From Microlunatus capsulatus (GTDB taxonomy: Bacteria; Actinomycetota; Actinomycetes; Propionibacteriales; Propionibacteriaceae): a DNA stretch of 64,000 bases. Where the stretch lies: NCBI RefSeq assembly GCF_017876495.1, contig NZ_JAGIOB010000001.1:496001-560000 (forward strand), given 5' to 3'. The position numbers were made by a program, and so were the translations under genes. A model generated the notes under the pieces. The model saw only the letters and a program-made list of their open reading frames with translations. It was not told the origin of the DNA and made no database searches. Each line of letters starts with the position of its first letter. Positions within the stretch are counted from its first letter, which is position 1. Shown here piece after piece: positions 28,776-42,306 of this stretch.

Positions 28776-31313
28776 ATGAGCGCTGAACTGACGCTGGGTG
28801 CCGAGGAAGAGCTGCACCTGATCGACCTGGAGAGCTGGAAGCTGTCGGCACGGGCTCCCCAGCTGCTCAGCCGTCTGCCCCGCGAGCACTACTCGGCGGA
28901 GATCCAGCGCACCACGGTGGAGACCAACACCGCCGTCGTGGACACCCTCGGCGGGCTGCGCGACGAGCTCGTCCGGCTGCGCCGCGGGCTGGTCGAGGTC
29001 GCCGCCGAGGACGGCATCGGGATCGCCGCCGTCGGCACCGCGCCCACCGCCGCCTTCGCCGACTTCGAGCTCACCGCCACCGGCCGCTACGGGCGCATGC
29101 AGGAGCAGTACCGGCTGCTGGTCGACGAGCAGCTGATCTGCGGGCTGCAGGTCCACGTCGGGGTGAGCAACCGCGACCTCGCCGTGCAGATCATGCAGCG
29201 GATCGCCCCCGACCTGCCGGTGCTGCTGGCCCTGTCGGCCAGCTCGCCCTACTGGAACGAGCAGGACACCGGCTACTCCTCCATCCGCTCGATCATCTGG
29301 CAGCGCTGGCCGAGCGCGGGCTCCACCGGCTACCTGGCCTCGGCCGCGGAGTACGGCGACCTCGTCGACGACCTCATCAGCACCGGCGTCATCGCCGACG
29401 CCAAGATGGCCTACTTCGACGTCCGGCCCTCCTCGCACGCGCCGACGCTGGAGCTGCGGGTCTGCGACGCCACCCCGATCGTCGACGACGCCATCCTCAT
29501 CGCCGGGCTGTTCCGGGCCGCGGTCCGGGCTGCCGAGGTCGACATCGCCGCCTGCCGCCCGTTCGCGCCGGTGCCCGCGCCGCTGCACCGGGCGTCGGTG
29601 TGGCGGGCGGCGCGCGGCGGCCTGAGCGGTGAGCTGCTGGACCACCTGCGCCACCCCCGCCCGCACCCGGCCCGGGAGGTCGTCCGCTCGCTGGTGCACC
29701 GGCTGCGCCCGCAGCTGGAGGAGCTGGGCGACTGGGACGAGGTGCAGGAGCTGTCCGAGACGGCCCTGGCCCGCGGCAACAGCGCCGACCGGCAGCGGGC
29801 CGCCTTCGCCGAGCGCGGACGGCTGAGCGACGTCGTCGAGCTGGTCGTCGCCGAGACCCACGGGCCCGCCTCGGGCCCGGCCCCCGCGGTGCCGGCGCTG
29901 CGCCGCTACCGGGCCCGGGCGGGCGACGAGGCCGTCGGGCCCGGCCTGCAGCCGCGGGCCGCCTACCGCGACCTCGTCGACCACTTCCGGAAGCAGCCGC
30001 CGGAGCAGCTCGCCGAGCGGGTGGCCGCCCGGGACGCCTGGGTCGACGCCCGCGGGCTGACCTTCGGCGTGGAGGGCGAGCAGCAGCGCTTCCACGTCGA
30101 CCTGGTCCCCCGGCTGATCAGCCCGCACGAGTGGGCGGCGCTCGCCGAGGGCCTGGGCCAGCGGGCGCGCGCCGTCGAGGCCTTCCTCCAGGACGTCTAC
30201 GGCGAGCAGCGGCTGCTCGCGGACGGCGTGCTGGACCGCGACCTCGTGGAGGGCTCCCCCGGCTGGCGGGCCGAGGCGCGCCGGCTCCCCGCCGGGGTGG
30301 TCCGGGCGCCGGTGATGGGCTTCGACCTGGTCCGCAACGAGTTCGGCGGCTGGCGGGTGCTGGAGGACAACCTCCGCAACCCCAGCGGGGCCGCGTACGC
30401 CCTCGCCGTCCGCGAGCTGCTGGACGCGGTGGTGCCCGAGCTCCCCCGGCCCGACGGGCTGGTTGACCCGCGGACGGCGCTGGCCGCGCTGGCCGCCACC
30501 CTGCGGGCCGGCAGCCCCGACGGCGCCGTCGCCCTGCTGTCCAGCGGCCCGGGCAGCTCCGCGTGGTTCGAGCACCGCGTGCTGGCCGAGCAGGCCGGGC
30601 TGCTGCTGTGCGGGGCCGACGACCTGGAGGTCGTCGACGGGCGGGTGCGGCACCGCGGCTCGGGTGGTGCGGTGGGGTGCCTCTACCTGCGGCTGGACGT
30701 CGAGCTGGTCGACCTCGTCGACGCCGACGGCCGGCCCGTCGGGGCCCAGCTCTTCGAGACCGCGGTCGCCGGCGGCGTCCGGCTGGCCAACGCCCCGGGC
30801 AACGGGGTGGCCGACGACAAGGCCATGTACTGCCACGTCCCCGAGCTGATCGCCTACTACCTCGGCGAGCACCCGACCCTGGAGTCGGTCCCCACCTACC
30901 GCACCAGCGACGAGGCCGAGTACCGGATCGTGCTGGACCGGGTGGGCGAGCTGGTGACCAAGCCCGTCGACGGCCACGGCGGCCTCGGCGTCCTCATCGG
31001 GCCGGACGCCGCCGCCTCGGCGGTGGCCGAGCGCCGCGCCCAGATCGTCGCCGACCCGGCCGGCTGGGTGGCCCAGGAGGTCGTCATGCTCTCCTCCCAC
31101 CCGACGCTGGACGACGGCTCGCTGGAGCCCCGGCACGTCGACCTCCGCGCCTTCGTCTACCTCACCGGCACCGGCCCCGGCGAGCAGACCCTCGCCGGCC
31201 TGGCCCTCACCCGGATGGCGCCCGAGGGCAGCCTCGTCGTCAACAGCTCCCGCGGCGGCGGGGCCAAGGACACCTGGATCGTGGCGCCGGGAGCCGGGGC
31301 GTCGGACGGATGA
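28776..31313 (+). CDS. GCS2-type carboxylate-amine ligase fused to circularly permuted ATP-grasp
   Basis: 845 residues, two enzymes in one chain. Residues ~5-365 are a glutamate-cysteine ligase type 2 (YbdK-like) domain: GAEEELHLID, LICGLQVHVGVSNRD, SSPYWNEQDTGYSS and DVRPSSHAPTLELRVCD. Residues ~375-840 are a permuted type 2 ATP-grasp domain: WRVLEDNLRNPSG, YLRLDVELVD, GNGVADDKAMY, LVTKPVDGHGGLGVLIGP and VNSSRGGGAKDTW. Both join a carboxylate to an amine using ATP, so the fusion may make a short peptide in two steps. Downstream lie an N-acetylglutaminylglutamine-type amidotransferase and an S9 peptidase, which suggests synthesis of an amidated dipeptide-like metabolite. The substrates are not readable. 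Automatic labels as glutamate-cysteine ligase would be misleading. Confidence 0.88.
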   Translation: MSAELTLGAEEELHLIDLESWKLSARAPQLLSRLPREHYSAEIQRTTVETNTAVVDTLGGLRDELVRLRRGLVEVAAEDGIGIAAVGTAPTAAFADFELTATGRYGRMQEQYRLLVDEQLICGLQVHVGVSNRDLAVQIMQRIAPDLPVLLALSASSPYWNEQDTGYSSIRSIIWQRWPSAGSTGYLASAAEYGDLVDDLISTGVIADAKMAYFDVRPSSHAPTLELRVCDATPIVDDAILIAGLFRAAVRAAEVDIAACRPFAPVPAPLHRASVWRAARGGLSGELLDHLRHPRPHPAREVVRSLVHRLRPQLEELGDWDEVQELSETALARGNSADRQRAAFAERGRLSDVVELVVAETHGPASGPAPAVPALRRYRARAGDEAVGPGLQPRAAYRDLVDHFRKQPPEQLAERVAARDAWVDARGLTFGVEGEQQRFHVDLVPRLISPHEWAALAEGLGQRARAVEAFLQDVYGEQRLLADGVLDRDLVEGSPGWRAEARRLPAGVVRAPVMGFDLVRNEFGGWRVLEDNLRNPSGAAYALAVRELLDAVVPELPRPDGLVDPRTALAALAATLRAGSPDGAVALLSSGPGSSAWFEHRVLAEQAGLLLCGADDLEVVDGRVRHRGSGGAVGCLYLRLDVELVDLVDADGRPVGAQLFETAVAGGVRLANAPGNGVADDKAMYCHVPELIAYYLGEHPTLESVPTYRTSDEAEYRIVLDRVGELVTKPVDGHGGLGVLIGPDAAASAVAERRAQIVADPAGWVAQEVVMLSSHPTLDDGSLEPRHVDLRAFVYLTGTGPGEQTLAGLALTRMAPEGSLVVNSSRGGGAKDTWIVAPGAGASDG

Positions 31314-31404
31314 CCGGGCGTCAGAGGACCACGCGACCCGGTGCGGGGCCGACCCCTCCCGAGCGTCGGGGAGGTCGGGCCCGGGTGCTCTCTGGACGAC
31401 GAGG

Positions 31405-31433
31405 CCGTGACGACACGCTTTTCGTCGTCACGG
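31405..31433 (+). promoter_or_regulatory. 10-bp hairpin between ligase fusion and amidotransferase genes
   Basis: CCGTGACGAC (31405-31414) pairs exactly with GTCGTCACGG (31424-31433) around a 9-base loop containing TTTT. It lies mid-way in the 177-base spacer, after a second imperfect hairpin near 31350-31377. It may be a terminator, an attenuator or an operator for the downstream pair. Confidence 0.5.
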
Positions 31434-31490
31434 GCGAGGAGGAAGAGGGCACCATGAGGGCCCGACCGAGCGCGAGGGAGAGGACACAGC

Positions 31491-33275
31491 ATGTGCGGAC
31501 TGGCCGGTGAGCTCCGCTTCGACGGGCGCAGCGCCGACGTGGGCGCCTGCGCCCGGATGGGCACGTGCCTGGAGCACCGCGGCCCGGACGGCGACGGGAT
31601 CTGGGCGCACGGCCCGGTCGCGCTGGCGCACCGGCGGCTGTCGATCATCGACCTCTCGGTCGCGGGCTCGCAGCCGATGGTCGACACAGCACTGGGCCTG
31701 ACCCTGGTCTTCAACGGCTGCATCTACAACTACCGCCAGCTGCGCGCCGAGCTGGAGGGGCACGGGCACCGCTTCTTCTCCACCTCCGACACCGAGGTGA
31801 TCGGCAAGGCCTACGCTCAGTGGGGGCTGGACTGCGTCGACCACTTCCTCGGGATGTTCGCGTTCGGGATCTACGAGCACCTGTCCGGCCGGCTGGTGCT
31901 GGGCCGCGACCGGCTGGGCATCAAGCCCCTCTACCTCGACCAGACGTCCGAGCGGCTCCGGTTCGCCTCGACGCTGCCCGCGCTGCTGGCCGGCGGTGGC
32001 ACCGACACCTCGCTCGACCGCGAGGCGCTGGCCCACTACCTGACCTTCCACAGCGTCGTGCCGGCCCCCCGCACCATCCTCTCCGGGGTGAAGAAGCTGC
32101 CGCCGGCGACGGTCCGCGTCGTCGAGCCGGACGGCACCTGGACCGACCGGCTCTACTGGGAGCCCACCTTCGGCCGCGACCCCGACAAGGCCGGCTGGTC
32201 CGACCGGGACTGGGAGGAGGCCCTGCTGGAGAGCCTCCGGGTGGCCGTCGACCGGCGGATGGTGTCCGACGTGCCCGTCGGCGTGCTGCTGTCGGGCGGC
32301 ATCGACTCCTCCCTCGTCGTGGCGCTGCTGGCCGAGATGGGCCAGACCGACCTCAAGACCTTCAGCATCGGCTTCGACTCCGCCGGCGGGGAGTCCGGCG
32401 ACGAGTTCGAGTACTCGACGCTGGTGGCCGAGCGCTTCGGGACCGACCACCACCGGATCTCGATCGACAGCGCCCGGCTGCTGCCCGGGATCGACGCCAC
32501 CGTCGAGGCGATGAGCGAGCCGATGGTCAGCCACGACTGCGTGGCCTTCCACCTGCTCAGCGAGGACGTCAGCCGGAGCGTCAAGGTCGTCCAGTCCGGC
32601 CAGGGCGCCGACGAGGTGCTGGGCGGCTACGACTGGTACCCGCCGCTCTCCGACGTGCCGCGCGCGGACGCCGTCGAGGCCTACTCCCGGGTGTTCTTCG
32701 ACCGCCGCTGGGACGCGATGGCCGGGGTGCTGAGCCGCGACTGGCTGCTGGACCACGACGCCCCGACAGCGTTCATCACCGAGCGCTTCGGCCGGCCGGG
32801 CGCGGACACCGCTGTCGACGCGGCGCTCCGCAACGACACCACGGTGATGCTCGTCGACGACCCGGTGAAGCGGGTCGACAACATGACGATGGCCTGGGGG
32901 CTGGAGGCCCGGGTGCCGTTCCTGGACCACGAGCTGGTCGAGCTGGCCGGCGCGATCCCGCCCGAGCTCAAGCTGGCCGACGGCGGCAAGGGCGTGCTCA
33001 AGCGGGCCAGCCGCGGTGTCGTCCCCGACGAGGTCATCGACCGGACCAAGGGCTACTTCCCGGTGCCGGCGATCCGCCAGCTGGAGGGCCCCTACCTCGA
33101 GCGGGTGCGGGACGCGCTGACCGACCCGCGGGCCCGGGAGCGCGGGCTGTTCGACCCGGCCCTGGTGCAGCGGCTGCTGGCCGACCCCAACAGCACCCGC
33201 ACGACGCTGGGCTCCAACGCCCTGTGGCAGCTGGCGCTGCTCGAGATGTGGCTGCAGAAGCACGATGTCGGCTGA
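31491..33275 (+). CDS. N-acetylglutaminylglutamine-type amidotransferase (asparagine synthase fold)
   Basis: 594 residues. The N-terminal class II glutaminase starts MCGLAGE with catalytic Cys2 and continues HRGPDGDG and FNGCIYNYRQLRAELEG. The synthetase half has the PP-loop LLSGGIDSS and QGADEVLGGY. Length, FSTSDTEVI and VPFLDHELVEL match the amidotransferase of the NAGGN osmolyte trio (TIGR03104) better than AsnB. The enzyme would amidate a C-terminal carboxylate with glutamine nitrogen. GGAGAGGA precedes the ATG. The usual partner synthetase (GNAT plus ATP-grasp) is absent; the ligase fusion upstream may take its place. The stop overlaps the S9 peptidase start. Confidence 0.88.
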   Translation: MCGLAGELRFDGRSADVGACARMGTCLEHRGPDGDGIWAHGPVALAHRRLSIIDLSVAGSQPMVDTALGLTLVFNGCIYNYRQLRAELEGHGHRFFSTSDTEVIGKAYAQWGLDCVDHFLGMFAFGIYEHLSGRLVLGRDRLGIKPLYLDQTSERLRFASTLPALLAGGGTDTSLDREALAHYLTFHSVVPAPRTILSGVKKLPPATVRVVEPDGTWTDRLYWEPTFGRDPDKAGWSDRDWEEALLESLRVAVDRRMVSDVPVGVLLSGGIDSSLVVALLAEMGQTDLKTFSIGFDSAGGESGDEFEYSTLVAERFGTDHHRISIDSARLLPGIDATVEAMSEPMVSHDCVAFHLLSEDVSRSVKVVQSGQGADEVLGGYDWYPPLSDVPRADAVEAYSRVFFDRRWDAMAGVLSRDWLLDHDAPTAFITERFGRPGADTAVDAALRNDTTVMLVDDPVKRVDNMTMAWGLEARVPFLDHELVELAGAIPPELKLADGGKGVLKRASRGVVPDEVIDRTKGYFPVPAIRQLEGPYLERVRDALTDPRARERGLFDPALVQRLLADPNSTRTTLGSNALWQLALLEMWLQKHDVG

Positions 33276-35124
33276 GGCGGGGACGGCGCCCGCCGGCCCG
33301 GTCGCGCTGGCGCACGCCCTCGTCGACGCCTGGGGCAGCTGGGGCCCGACCCTGGACCCGGACTGCCGCCGGATCGCCTTCGTCAGCGACCGCAGCGGGA
33401 CCCCCTGCGTCTGGGTGGACGACCTGCCGGTCGACGGCGCGGAGCCGGCCCCGGTGCGGCTCGCGCTGTCGGAGGACCCCGTCGTCGCCGTCAGCTGGTC
33501 GGCCGACGGCGGCTGGCTCGCCGTCTGCGTGGCCACCGACGGCGGCGTCCGTACCCAGGTGTGGGTGGTCCGGCCCGACGGCAGCCAGGCCCGTCGGCTG
33601 GCGGGCTCCCGGGAGACGCACGCCGAGCTGGGCCCCTGGACGCGCAGCGGGCACCGCGTCGTCGTCACGGTGCCGGGCGAGGCGGCGGGCGAGCCGACCA
33701 CCTGCTACCTGGCCGACCCGGCGACCGGGGTGCTCACCGCTCTCGCCGTCGGCGAGCTGATCAGCGTCCTCGACCTCAGCGTCGACCAGGAGCACGTGAT
33801 CCTCAAGGACGGGCAGCGCGGGAAGCAGTTCTGCGTCGTCGTCGACCGCGACGCCGACGAGGACCACCCGCTGCTGCCCTACCCGGCGACCGGCTCGACC
33901 GACCGCGCGATCATCCGGCCCGCGCCCCCCGGCGACGCGTCCGCGCTGGTCGCCTACGTCGCCACCGACGCCGGGCTCCCCCGCCGCCAGGTGGTGGCCG
34001 TGCCGCTGGGCCCCGAGGGCTGGCGCGGGCAGACCGGCGTGCTCGCCCCGCGCGAGGACGCCGAGCTGGAGGGCCTCGACGCCGACGACGCCGGCCGGCT
34101 GCTGCTGCTGGTCTGGAACGTGGCGGGGACCAGCGAGCTGCAGCTCTACGACACCGCGACCGGCGCCCTGCGGGCGGTGCCTGGGATGCCGGGCGCGGTG
34201 GTCAGCGGCGCCCTGCTCAGCCGCGACGGCTCGCTGGTGCTGATGGCCGTCGAGGGTCCGGAGCGACCGCGCGAGCTGTGGACCGTCGCCGTCGCCACCC
34301 TGGCCTGGCGGCGCGTCACCGACGTGCCCGCCCTGCCGGACGTGCCGCTGGTGGTGCCGACGCTGGAGCACCTGGTGGGCCGCGACGGCCTGCCGCTGAC
34401 GGGCTGGCTGTACCGGGTGCCCGGGTCGACCGGACCCGGGCCGGCGCTGGTGAGCCTGCACGGCGGGCCGGAGGCGCAGGAGCGGCCGACCTTCAACCCG
34501 CAGCACCAGGCCGTGGTGGCCGCCGGGATCACCGTCTTCGCCCCGAACATCCGCGGCTCGTCGGGTTTCGGCCGCGCCTTCGTGCACGCCGACGACGTCC
34601 GCGGCCGGCGCGACGCGTTCGACGACGTCCTCGCCTGCCGCGACCACCTGCTGGCGACCGACGTCGCCGACCCCCGGCGGATCGCCGTCGGCGGCCGGTC
34701 CTACGGGGGCTACCTGACGCTGGCGATGCTGGCCTTCTCCCCCGGCATCTTCGCCGCCGGCGTCGACATCTGCGGCATGTCGGACCTGCACACCTTCTAC
34801 CGCGACACCGAGCCCTGGATCGCCGCGGCGGCGGTCAGCAAGTACGGCCACCCCGAGCACGACTACGCGCTCCTCCGGGCGCTGTCCCCGCTGCACTTCG
34901 CCACCAACATCGCGGTCCCGCTGCTGGTGGTGCACGGCGAGCTCGACACCAACGTGCCGCTCGGCGAGGCCACCCAGGTGGTCGCCGCCCTGCGCGCGCT
35001 CGGCCGCCCGGTGGAGTACCTGGAGCTGGCCGGCGAGGGCCACGAGTACCGCCGGGCCGACTCGCGGCGGCAGCTGGACGAGCGGCTGCTGCAGTTCCTC
35101 ACCCGCGTGCTCGCCGGCGGCTGA
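33265..35124 (+). CDS. S9-family prolyl oligopeptidase-like hydrolase
   Basis: 619 residues, no signal peptide. The first ~370 residues form repeated beta-propeller strands, and the last 250 are an alpha/beta hydrolase with nucleophile Ser in GGRSYGGYL, Asp in GELDTNVPL and His in GEGHEYRR. It should cleave short peptides or acyl-amino acids in the cytoplasm. Its ATG overlaps the end of the amidotransferase by 11 bases, so both are translated together. In the canonical NAGGN trio the third gene is an M42-type hydrolase, so this protein may play the analogous recycling or processing role. Confidence 0.9.
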   Translation: MSAEAGTAPAGPVALAHALVDAWGSWGPTLDPDCRRIAFVSDRSGTPCVWVDDLPVDGAEPAPVRLALSEDPVVAVSWSADGGWLAVCVATDGGVRTQVWVVRPDGSQARRLAGSRETHAELGPWTRSGHRVVVTVPGEAAGEPTTCYLADPATGVLTALAVGELISVLDLSVDQEHVILKDGQRGKQFCVVVDRDADEDHPLLPYPATGSTDRAIIRPAPPGDASALVAYVATDAGLPRRQVVAVPLGPEGWRGQTGVLAPREDAELEGLDADDAGRLLLLVWNVAGTSELQLYDTATGALRAVPGMPGAVVSGALLSRDGSLVLMAVEGPERPRELWTVAVATLAWRRVTDVPALPDVPLVVPTLEHLVGRDGLPLTGWLYRVPGSTGPGPALVSLHGGPEAQERPTFNPQHQAVVAAGITVFAPNIRGSSGFGRAFVHADDVRGRRDAFDDVLACRDHLLATDVADPRRIAVGGRSYGGYLTLAMLAFSPGIFAAGVDICGMSDLHTFYRDTEPWIAAAAVSKYGHPEHDYALLRALSPLHFATNIAVPLLVVHGELDTNVPLGEATQVVAALRALGRPVEYLELAGEGHEYRRADSRRQLDERLLQFLTRVLAGG

Positions 35125-40798: not shown

Positions 40799-42306
40799 GC
40801 GGACACCGCCTCGGGGAGCGGCGGGATGCGGTCCAGCAGGGCGCCGCCCCACTGCGCGGTGAGCGCGCGCTCCAGCGCGGCGCCGACCCGGTAGAGCCGG
40901 TCGTCGGCCAGCGGCGGGGCCATCACCTGCAGCCCGACGGGCAGGCCGTCCTCGGGGGCCAGGCCCACGGGGAACGACGCGCTCGCGTTGCCGGCGAGGT
41001 TGGACGGGATGGTGCAGAGGTCGTTCATGTACATGGCCAGCGGGTCGTCGACCTTCTCGCCCAGCTTGAAGGCGGTCGTCGGGGTGGAGGGGGAGATCAG
41101 CACGTCGGCGGCGCTGAACGCGGCCTCGAAGTCGCGGCTGATCAGCGTCCGGACCTTCTGCGCCTGCCCGTAGTAGGCGTCGTAGTAGCCGCTGGACAGC
41201 GCGTAGGTGCCGATGATGATGCGGCGCTTCACCTCGGCGCCGAAGCCGGCCTCGCGGGTCGCGGCCATCACCTGCTCGGCGCTCAGGGTGCCGTCGTCGC
41301 CGACCCGCAGGCCGAACCGCATCGCGTCGAACTTGGCGAGGTTGGACGAGGCCTCGCTGGGCAGGATGAGGTAGTAGGCGGGCATGGCGTAGACGAAGTG
41401 CGGGCAGGAGACCTCGACGATCTCGGCGCCCAGCGAGGACAGCAGCGCCACCGACTCGGCGAAGCGCTGCTCGACCCCGGGCGCGTAGCCCTCGCCGCTC
41501 AGCTCCTTCACGACGCCGATCCGCATGCCGGCGACGTCGCCCGAGCGGGCGGCGCCGACGACGTCGGGGACGGGCGCGTCGATGGAGGTGGAGTCGCGGG
41601 GGTCGTGGCCGGCGATGACCTGGTGCAGCAGCGCCGCGTCCAGGACGGTCCGGGCGCAGGGCCCGGGCTGGTCGAGGCTGGAGGCCAGCGCGACCAGGCC
41701 GTAACGGGAGGTGCCGCCGTAGGTCGGCTTCACCCCGACCGTGCCGGTGACCGACGCCGGCTGGCGGATCGAGCCGCCGGTGTCGGTGCCGATGGAGAGC
41801 GGGGCCTCGAAGGCTGCCAGCGCTGCGGCCGAGCCGCCGCCGGAGCCGCCGGGGATCCGGTCGAGGTCCCAGGGGTTGTGGGTGGGCCCGTAGGCGGAGT
41901 TCTCCGTGGAGGAGCCCATGGCGAACTCGTCGAGGTTCGTCTTGCCCAGCACGACGAGGTCGGCGTCCAGCAGCCGCTGGGTGACCGTCGCGTTGTAGGG
42001 CGGGTACCAGCCCTCGAGCACCCGTGACCCGCAGGTCGTCGGCGCCCCGGTCATGGTCAGCACGTCCTTGAGGGCCAGCGGCACGCCGGCCAGCGGGCCG
42101 AGGGCCTCGCCGCGGCCGCGCTTGGCGTCGACGGCGGCCGCGGCCGCGAGGGCGCGCTCGCCGTCCACGTGCAGGAAGGCGTGCACGGCCGGCTCGACGG
42201 CCTCGATCCGGTCCAGGTGCGCGCGGGTGACCTCGACGGCGCTCTGCTCGCCGGAGGCGATCCGGCCGGCCAGCTCCGCGGCGGTGGCACGCAGGGTGTC
42301 GCTCAC
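40795..42306 (-). CDS. gatA: Asp-tRNA(Asn)/Glu-tRNA(Gln) amidotransferase subunit A
   Basis: 503 residues of the amidase signature family. The catalytic Ser-cisSer-Lys triad lies in [18 protein letters not shown] and [13 protein letters not shown]. It frees ammonia from glutamine and channels it to GatB. The GTG at 42306 overlaps the gatC stop by four bases, which sets the start. Confidence 0.98.

Follow-up and report, generated by a model that had tools for sequence, protein, structure and literature searches.

N-acetylglutaminylglutamine amide (NAGGN) synthesis is the closest described system to the locus reported here. In the canonical pathway, as given in an excerpt of PMC8070244, Ngg acetylates a glutamine and links another to it, and AsnO amidates the C-terminus. 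The canonical genes (asnO-ngg; PA3459-PA3461) encode an amidotransferase of family TIGR03104, a GNAT/ATP-grasp synthetase (TIGR03103), and an M42 peptidase (TIGR03106). In this study, we analyzed a 64,000-nucleotide stretch of the Microlunatus capsulatus genome (contig NZ_JAGIOB010000001.1, positions 496,001 to 560,000), referred to as the window, which carries a trio of genes for a fusion of a GCS2-type ligase with a circularly permuted (CP) ATP-grasp domain (gene 1), a TIGR03104-type glutamine amidotransferase (gene 2), and an S9 peptidase (gene 3). The trio resembles the NAGGN genes in its amidotransferase family and in that a peptidase and an ATP-dependent ligase for peptides are encoded next to the amidotransferase, as in the Azospirillum record. 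However, its ligase is a GCS2/CP ATP-grasp protein without a GNAT domain and lies upstream of the amidotransferase, whereas the canonical synthetase lies downstream; its peptidase is an S9 serine peptidase and not an M42 enzyme, and its amidotransferase falls in a separate clade of a quick tree. The trio thus fails several defining features of NAGGN synthesis and should not be filed under that name. It is a genuine, recurring variation on the NAGGN theme in which both the ligase and the peptidase differ, and we consider it reasonably probable that it forms an operon for a small amidated peptide, in a sister pathway to NAGGN synthesis.

Parts of the locus resemble other systems. GshF/GshAB carries a gamma-glutamyl-type and an ATP-grasp-type ligase, both ATP-dependent, on one chain; the fusion in the window differs in being built from other families (YbdK-type GCS2 and CP ATP-grasp) and in being followed by an amidotransferase and an S9 peptidase. 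CP ATP-grasp proteins also have a known set of partner genes in the CP ATP-grasp/alpha-E/transglutaminase/NTN-hydrolase system. No partner gene of this set was conserved in the gene clustering of 81 fusion loci described below, which included no scan for those domains by name. The nearest solved structure to the second domain of gene 1 is 3n6x, a CP ATP-grasp type 2 protein entitled 'putative glutathionylspermidine synthase' (phmmer 287 bits, residues 397-836; Foldseek 1.7e-33). Unlike the fused domain it is stand-alone, and its entry title names no substrate. In Streptomyces fungicidicus (NZ_CP023408), a cluster with a lone GCS2 gene encodes a glutamate--cysteine ligase, an 'N-acetylglutaminylglutamine amidotransferase', and an alpha/beta fold hydrolase of S9 type in the same order as in the window. 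Its amidotransferase groups with the fusion-linked ones, but no CP ATP-grasp gene lies beside it. ABAGG of Micromonospora was rejected as a relative, being chemically unrelated according to an excerpt of its description. The titles and abstract openings of the literature matches listed held no description of the cluster; Sagot et al. 2010 and Iyer et al. 2009 may list such neighbourhoods, and we do not claim that it is undescribed.

The fusion, the amidotransferase, and the overlapping S9 peptidase named in the original prediction were all confirmed by their open reading frames and profile matches (Table 1). Gene 1 matched PF04107 (GCS2) at residues 7-280 with 165.5 bits against a cut-off of 21, and PF14403 (CP_ATPgrasp_2) at residues 445-815 with 346.7 bits against 32, which places its second part in the latter family. 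With 256.3 bits for TIGR02050 (cut-off 176.4), it also belongs to the YbdK-type GCS2 ligases. An alignment of 82 fusion proteins was examined, comprising those of the 81 loci, window included, and one more (L062). In at least 81 rows, 193 residues of the window's fusion were retained. The GCS2 residues G8, E10-E12, H14, E49, H127, R217, E226, and R228 and the CP ATP-grasp residues D531, D680-D681-K682, K729, E768, R791, and R813 were invariant in all 82, and E530 and K831 of the CP ATP-grasp domain were kept in 81. Both ligase domains therefore retain their motifs, as a check proposed with the original prediction had asked; the jobs of these residues we take from family knowledge. The same retained blocks line up with 3n6x and YbdK-type structures. 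Gene 1 was modelled with AlphaFold from 40 of the aligned sequences, and the model had a mean pLDDT of 87.0 and a pTM of 0.76. Its Foldseek ranking against the PDB was headed by 3n6x, followed by 1tt4/1r8g (YbdK) and then by eukaryotic glutathione synthetases, with plant glutamate-cysteine ligase lower. The output gives no aligned ranges, and the glutathione synthetase matches presumably fall on the second domain of the model.

Gene 2 scored 946.6 bits for TIGR03104 (cut-off 570.1), with residues 1-591 on profile positions 1-589, so that the resemblance first noted proved to be family membership. It combines a class II glutaminase carrying Cys2 with an asparagine-synthase domain whose PP-loop, SGGIDSS, lies at residue 268. 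Cys2 was found in 132 of 133 non-outgroup rows, the other having a gap, and the PP-loop was present. Gene 3 matched PF00326 (Peptidase_S9) with 153.2 bits, and its triad S479/D561/H593 was kept in all 94 relatives in which those positions were aligned. Gene 3 shares its first 11 bases (33265-33275) with the end of gene 2, and 177 bases separate gene 1 from gene 2.

Table 1. Features of the three-gene locus, in window positions.
Feature	Position	Strand	Product or extent	Basis
Gene 1, GCS2/CP ATP-grasp fusion	28776-31313	+	845 aa, ATG	Open reading frame, profile matches, structure model, conservation
Gene 1 GCS2 domain, YbdK-type carboxylate-amine ligase	28776..29870	+	aa 1-365 (match ~5-362)	
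Gene 1 CP ATP-grasp type 2 domain	30081..31310	+	aa 436-845 (match ~445-836)	
Gene 2, TIGR03104-type glutamine amidotransferase	31491-33275	+	594 aa, ATG, MCG... N-terminus	
Gene 3, S9 (prolyl oligopeptidase family) peptidase	33265-35124	+	619 aa, ATG	

The original prediction saw a NAGGN-like cassette with another ligase and with S9 in place of M42, and the M. capsulatus genome agrees with this view. All 16 TIGR03103 candidates in the genome were scored, and the best reached 182 bits against a cut-off of 569. This best match was rejected as a NAGGN synthetase, being a cyanophycin synthetase (TIGR02068, 1161.4 bits; L001, C1:3708657-3712628); by eye, a cyanophycinase-like frame adjoins it. No TIGR03106 M42 peptidase was matched in the genome at E <= 0.001, a weak criterion given that an M42 relative was present at just 6 of 24 NAGGN-linked loci, several of them cut by contig ends. 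Three observations had been named as speaking against the prediction, namely a canonical synthetase gene elsewhere in the genome, lack of joint conservation of the three genes, and loss of catalytic residues in either ligase domain; none was made for M. capsulatus. The genome has two more CP ATP-grasp regions (L010 and L011), 45% and 35% identical to the second part of the fusion.

Conservation of the gene order was examined at 81 fusion loci, the window's and those of the best 80 of at least 459 fusion relatives in a contig scan. Because these relatives are the best matches, the set is biased to near relatives and Microbacteriaceae. The amidotransferase was present at 63 loci and the S9 peptidase at 62, at one of them (L126) as a 54-bit fragment only, which bore out the expected conservation of the three genes. 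Neither partner was present at 15 loci, S9 without the amidotransferase at 3, and the amidotransferase without S9 at 4. When the predicted genes were clustered, only the three families of the trio proved widely common, with whole-gene matches at 81, 62, and 58 loci; the family after them was found at 13. There was no widely conserved fourth gene among the predicted frames, which exclude those below 50 residues. Three loci truncated at contig ends (L084, L113, and L127) were left out and L126 was scored as lacking S9; a hand count of the 78 uncut loci then gave 58 with both partners, 3 with the amidotransferase only, 3 with S9 only, and 14 with neither. The two partners were absent jointly (Fisher p 3.9e-10, relatedness ignored). 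On a quick tree of the 78 uncut fusions, presence of the amidotransferase changed 10 times, and at least 8 of these changes were forced by well supported branches. At fusion loci without the amidotransferase, an alternative shared partner was sought, and nothing common was found beyond near relatives. The order fusion, amidotransferase, S9 is repeated in seven or more named families of actinobacteria with changing flanking genes, and is therefore not due to chance.

Ligase partners of TIGR03104 amidotransferases were compared in two samples. Among 198 genomes of the phylum, TIGR03104 was over its cut-off in 24 and the fusion (E <= 1e-100) was found in two, the window's and one other. In the 23 TIGR03104 genomes other than the window's, four ligase types adjoin the amidotransferase. 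The second sample consisted of 296 evenly sampled genomes of the window's class (Actinomycetes), with four candidates scored per genome, so that further copies may be missed. TIGR03104 (E <= 1e-180) was present in 85 and TIGR03103 (E <= 1e-120) in 45. In all 44 genomes with both, the synthetase directly follows the amidotransferase, as judged by eye from coordinates. The remaining 41 TIGR03104 genomes were searched with as many as 26 candidates scored in each, and none had a TIGR03103 match at E <= 1e-60; the control of this search itself had no match, and the same family search matched in 45 of the 296 class genomes and in 7 of the 38 fusion genomes described below. Upstream of the amidotransferase, these 41 non-canonical genomes carried GCS2 and CP ATP-grasp (27), GCS2 alone (11), or neither in full (3; L170, L176, and L178), and downstream of it S9 was found in 34. 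The two ligase domains share one open frame at 24 of 26 loci (the 27 minus the window's; L183 is cut at its start), and a single stop parts them at L162 and L171.

An amidotransferase tree was built quickly from 59 thinned rows, four of them outgroup; the outgroup branches are long and the root is unsure. One clade of 38 rows (SH-aLRT 98) included the window's amidotransferase and none of the 14 NAGGN-linked rows. This clade held all 29 fusion-linked rows, three of the four lone-GCS2 rows, one row with a CP ATP-grasp fragment (L178), and five for which no same-strand ligase was found. The rows with CP ATP-grasp only (L053 and L056, with DUF1028) fell outside it. A further search covered 38 of the 80 fusion genomes: every one of the 17 with an uncut locus lacking the amidotransferase, and 21 with it. 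This is a chosen set whose shares are not frequencies. TIGR03104 was present in 23 and absent from 15 (E <= 1e-100). TIGR03103 was found in seven, each time next to a TIGR03104 copy that is not at the fusion locus; the canonical synthetase is thus missing from M. capsulatus and present in these seven other fusion genomes. Five of them have a second amidotransferase at the fusion, and hence both ligase-amidotransferase pairs, with S9 in three of the five. Geodermatophilaceae bacterium URHB0062 (L081 and L149) is an example of a genome with both pairs. In the other two (G207 and G210), the fusion is accompanied by S9 and lacks an amidotransferase of its own. That a single cell has distinct amidotransferases, each tied to its own partner, speaks for two products.

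The sister-pathway reading is based on the architecture, motif retention, and gene order, together with the separate amidotransferase clade and, in some genomes, the coexistence with canonical NAGGN genes. By analogy, the trio probably works in the same way as NAGGN synthesis. Its product is probably an amidated gamma-glutamyl peptide, and likely the amide of a gamma-glutamyl di- or tripeptide that serves as a compatible solute. The GCS2 domain would couple an amine to a glutamate-like acid by way of an acyl phosphate, as its family suggests, and the CP ATP-grasp domain, with a fold like that of eukaryotic glutathione synthetase, would add a further residue onto the free carboxylate. Gene 2 would then convert the C-terminal carboxylate into a primary amide with ammonia from glutamine, a reaction described for its canonical homologues, and the S9 peptidase may hydrolyse or recycle the product. 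Some lineages manage with a lone GCS2, so that the core of the product is likely to be a (gamma-)glutamyl compound made by GCS2. The S9 gene varies with the amidotransferase and not with the fusion, and the peptidase therefore probably acts on the amidated product.

Several observations weigh against this reading. The original prediction took two fused ligases and an amidase for one complete pathway, and this did not hold as an obligatory set. A lone GCS2 occupies the ligase place in 11 of the 41 non-canonical genomes, in nine of which no CP ATP-grasp was found at E <= 1e-30, and a lone CP ATP-grasp occupies it at L053 and L056. Among the 17 uncut fusion loci without an amidotransferase, 15 lie in genomes without TIGR03104 and two in genomes with the canonical-locus copy only, so that the fusion appears useful without an amidotransferase of its own. 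S9 was not found at 7 of the 27 class-sample fusion loci, some of them cut by contig ends, and its role in place of the canonical M42 enzyme would follow by analogy only. On the tree, one lone-GCS2 row (L065, its GCS2 31% identical) lies outside the 38-row clade, and two of the five clade rows without a same-strand ligase (L153 and L194) also lack S9. Finally, near-fixed differences (85%) between GCS2-linked and NAGGN-linked amidotransferases were limited to two positions, which gave no substrate; because so little separates the groups, the amidotransferase may act on a substrate close to the canonical one.

The small number of such differences, together with the 60-66% identity of the window's amidotransferase to the 24 NAGGN-linked ones, also speaks for a rival explanation in which the product is NAGGN or a closely similar N-acylated compound, the GCS2/CP ATP-grasp protein being a non-homologous replacement of the GNAT/ATP-grasp synthetase and the acetyl group being added in trans. 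A possible source of the acetyl group is seen in one family of genomes, f71 (for example at L165 and L185), where a relative of one GNAT gene (Pfam on the L165 copy only) lies downstream of the cluster at 18 of 25 loci and, at four loci where S9 was not found, directly after the amidotransferase. However, its distance varies and its strand is once inverted, so it may be mere synteny. A profile of this GNAT matched nothing near the window's cluster, and beyond f71 it gave just one weak, distant match (L088). GCS2 enzymes are not known to acetylate. With both ligase-amidotransferase pairs retained in five genomes, we regard a NAGGN-like product as unlikely.

A thiol product is less likely still. 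The fusion would in that case be a GshF-like gamma-glutamylcysteine/glutathione synthetase made from other families, and the amidotransferase would yield a redox buffer resembling glutathione amide. Actinobacteria mostly use mycothiol, which counts against this explanation. The GCS2 domain does exceed the cut-off of NF010041, 'glutamate--cysteine ligase' (353.6 against 332 bits), and the fusion model matches glutathione synthetases in Foldseek, but of the equivalog models for glutamate--cysteine ligase that matched gene 1, none reached its cut-off. The GshF families TIGR01435 and NF002688 were absent from the 10 NCBIfam matches of gene 1 (E <= 0.001), and the cluster has no other widely conserved neighbour. 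Glutathione amide occurs in Chromatium, according to an excerpt of PMC7278568, so that such a buffer has a precedent.

It is very improbable that the ligases act on proteins or peptides as a tagging system, as proposed for other neighbourhoods of CP ATP-grasp and carboxylate-amine ligases. Iyer et al. reportedly placed CP ATP-grasp proteins in predicted tagging systems in 2009. At the loci studied here, just three families are widely common, although a very small substrate gene could be missed below the 50-residue limit, and the amidotransferase comes from a small-molecule family. That the genes are neighbours without a shared pathway can almost be dismissed: the fusion stands without both partners at 14 of the 78 uncut loci, but the order is conserved with changing flanks, the amidotransferase and S9 are absent together, and the repeated changes on the fusion tree are largely forced by well supported branches.

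On the left of the trio, trpE and hisI lie on the opposite strand and a TIGR03085 protein is encoded on the same strand; on the right, a 486-residue frame without Pfam or NCBIfam match is followed further on by gatB and gatA. Scans for promoters and terminators and an Rfam search (E <= 0.1) found nothing. A tRNA-SeC called by ARAGORN at window positions 41694-41786, antisense inside gatA, is probably false, Rfam having no match there at the same threshold.

Some TIGR03104 loci elsewhere had other neighbours. In two genomes of one other family, f16, a lone CP ATP-grasp gene and the amidotransferase are accompanied by a DUF1028 gene (L053:6505-10550 and L056:7174-11159; Pfam on the L053 copy). 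At L064, a frame of the C26 peptidase family and an ATP-grasp-like frame come after the amidotransferase, and there the contig ends. L194 is a divergent locus, a second TIGR03104 copy in a genome (G415) that also has canonical NAGGN genes; the opposite strand upstream of its amidotransferase carries a GCS2 gene and the gene for GlnA, a type I glutamine synthetase (661.1 bits). The GlnA neighbour fits glutamine as a donor or substrate. L153, in a Naasia genome, is a divergent copy, 57% identical to the window's, which by eye is adjoined by permease-like and nucleoside-hydrolase-like genes; none of the query ligases was found near it.

More broadly, though with slightly less than even confidence, we propose that TIGR03104-type amidotransferases are a swappable capping module, combined with GNAT/ATP-grasp, GCS2, CP ATP-grasp, or fusion ligases and with M42, S9, DUF1028, or C26 hydrolases. 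The solutes produced would be a family of amidated small peptides, NAGGN being just one member, and in about half of the TIGR03104 genomes of the class (41 of 85) the product would be a different compound, perhaps one not yet described. These 41 genomes, whose clusters have no NAGGN synthetase, fall under the 'equivalog' name N-acetylglutaminylglutamine amidotransferase, and the misleading name already stands on the S. fungicidicus record. Genomes with both ligase-amidotransferase pairs allow a clean test of two products. These results point to an unidentified class of metabolites in actinobacteria.

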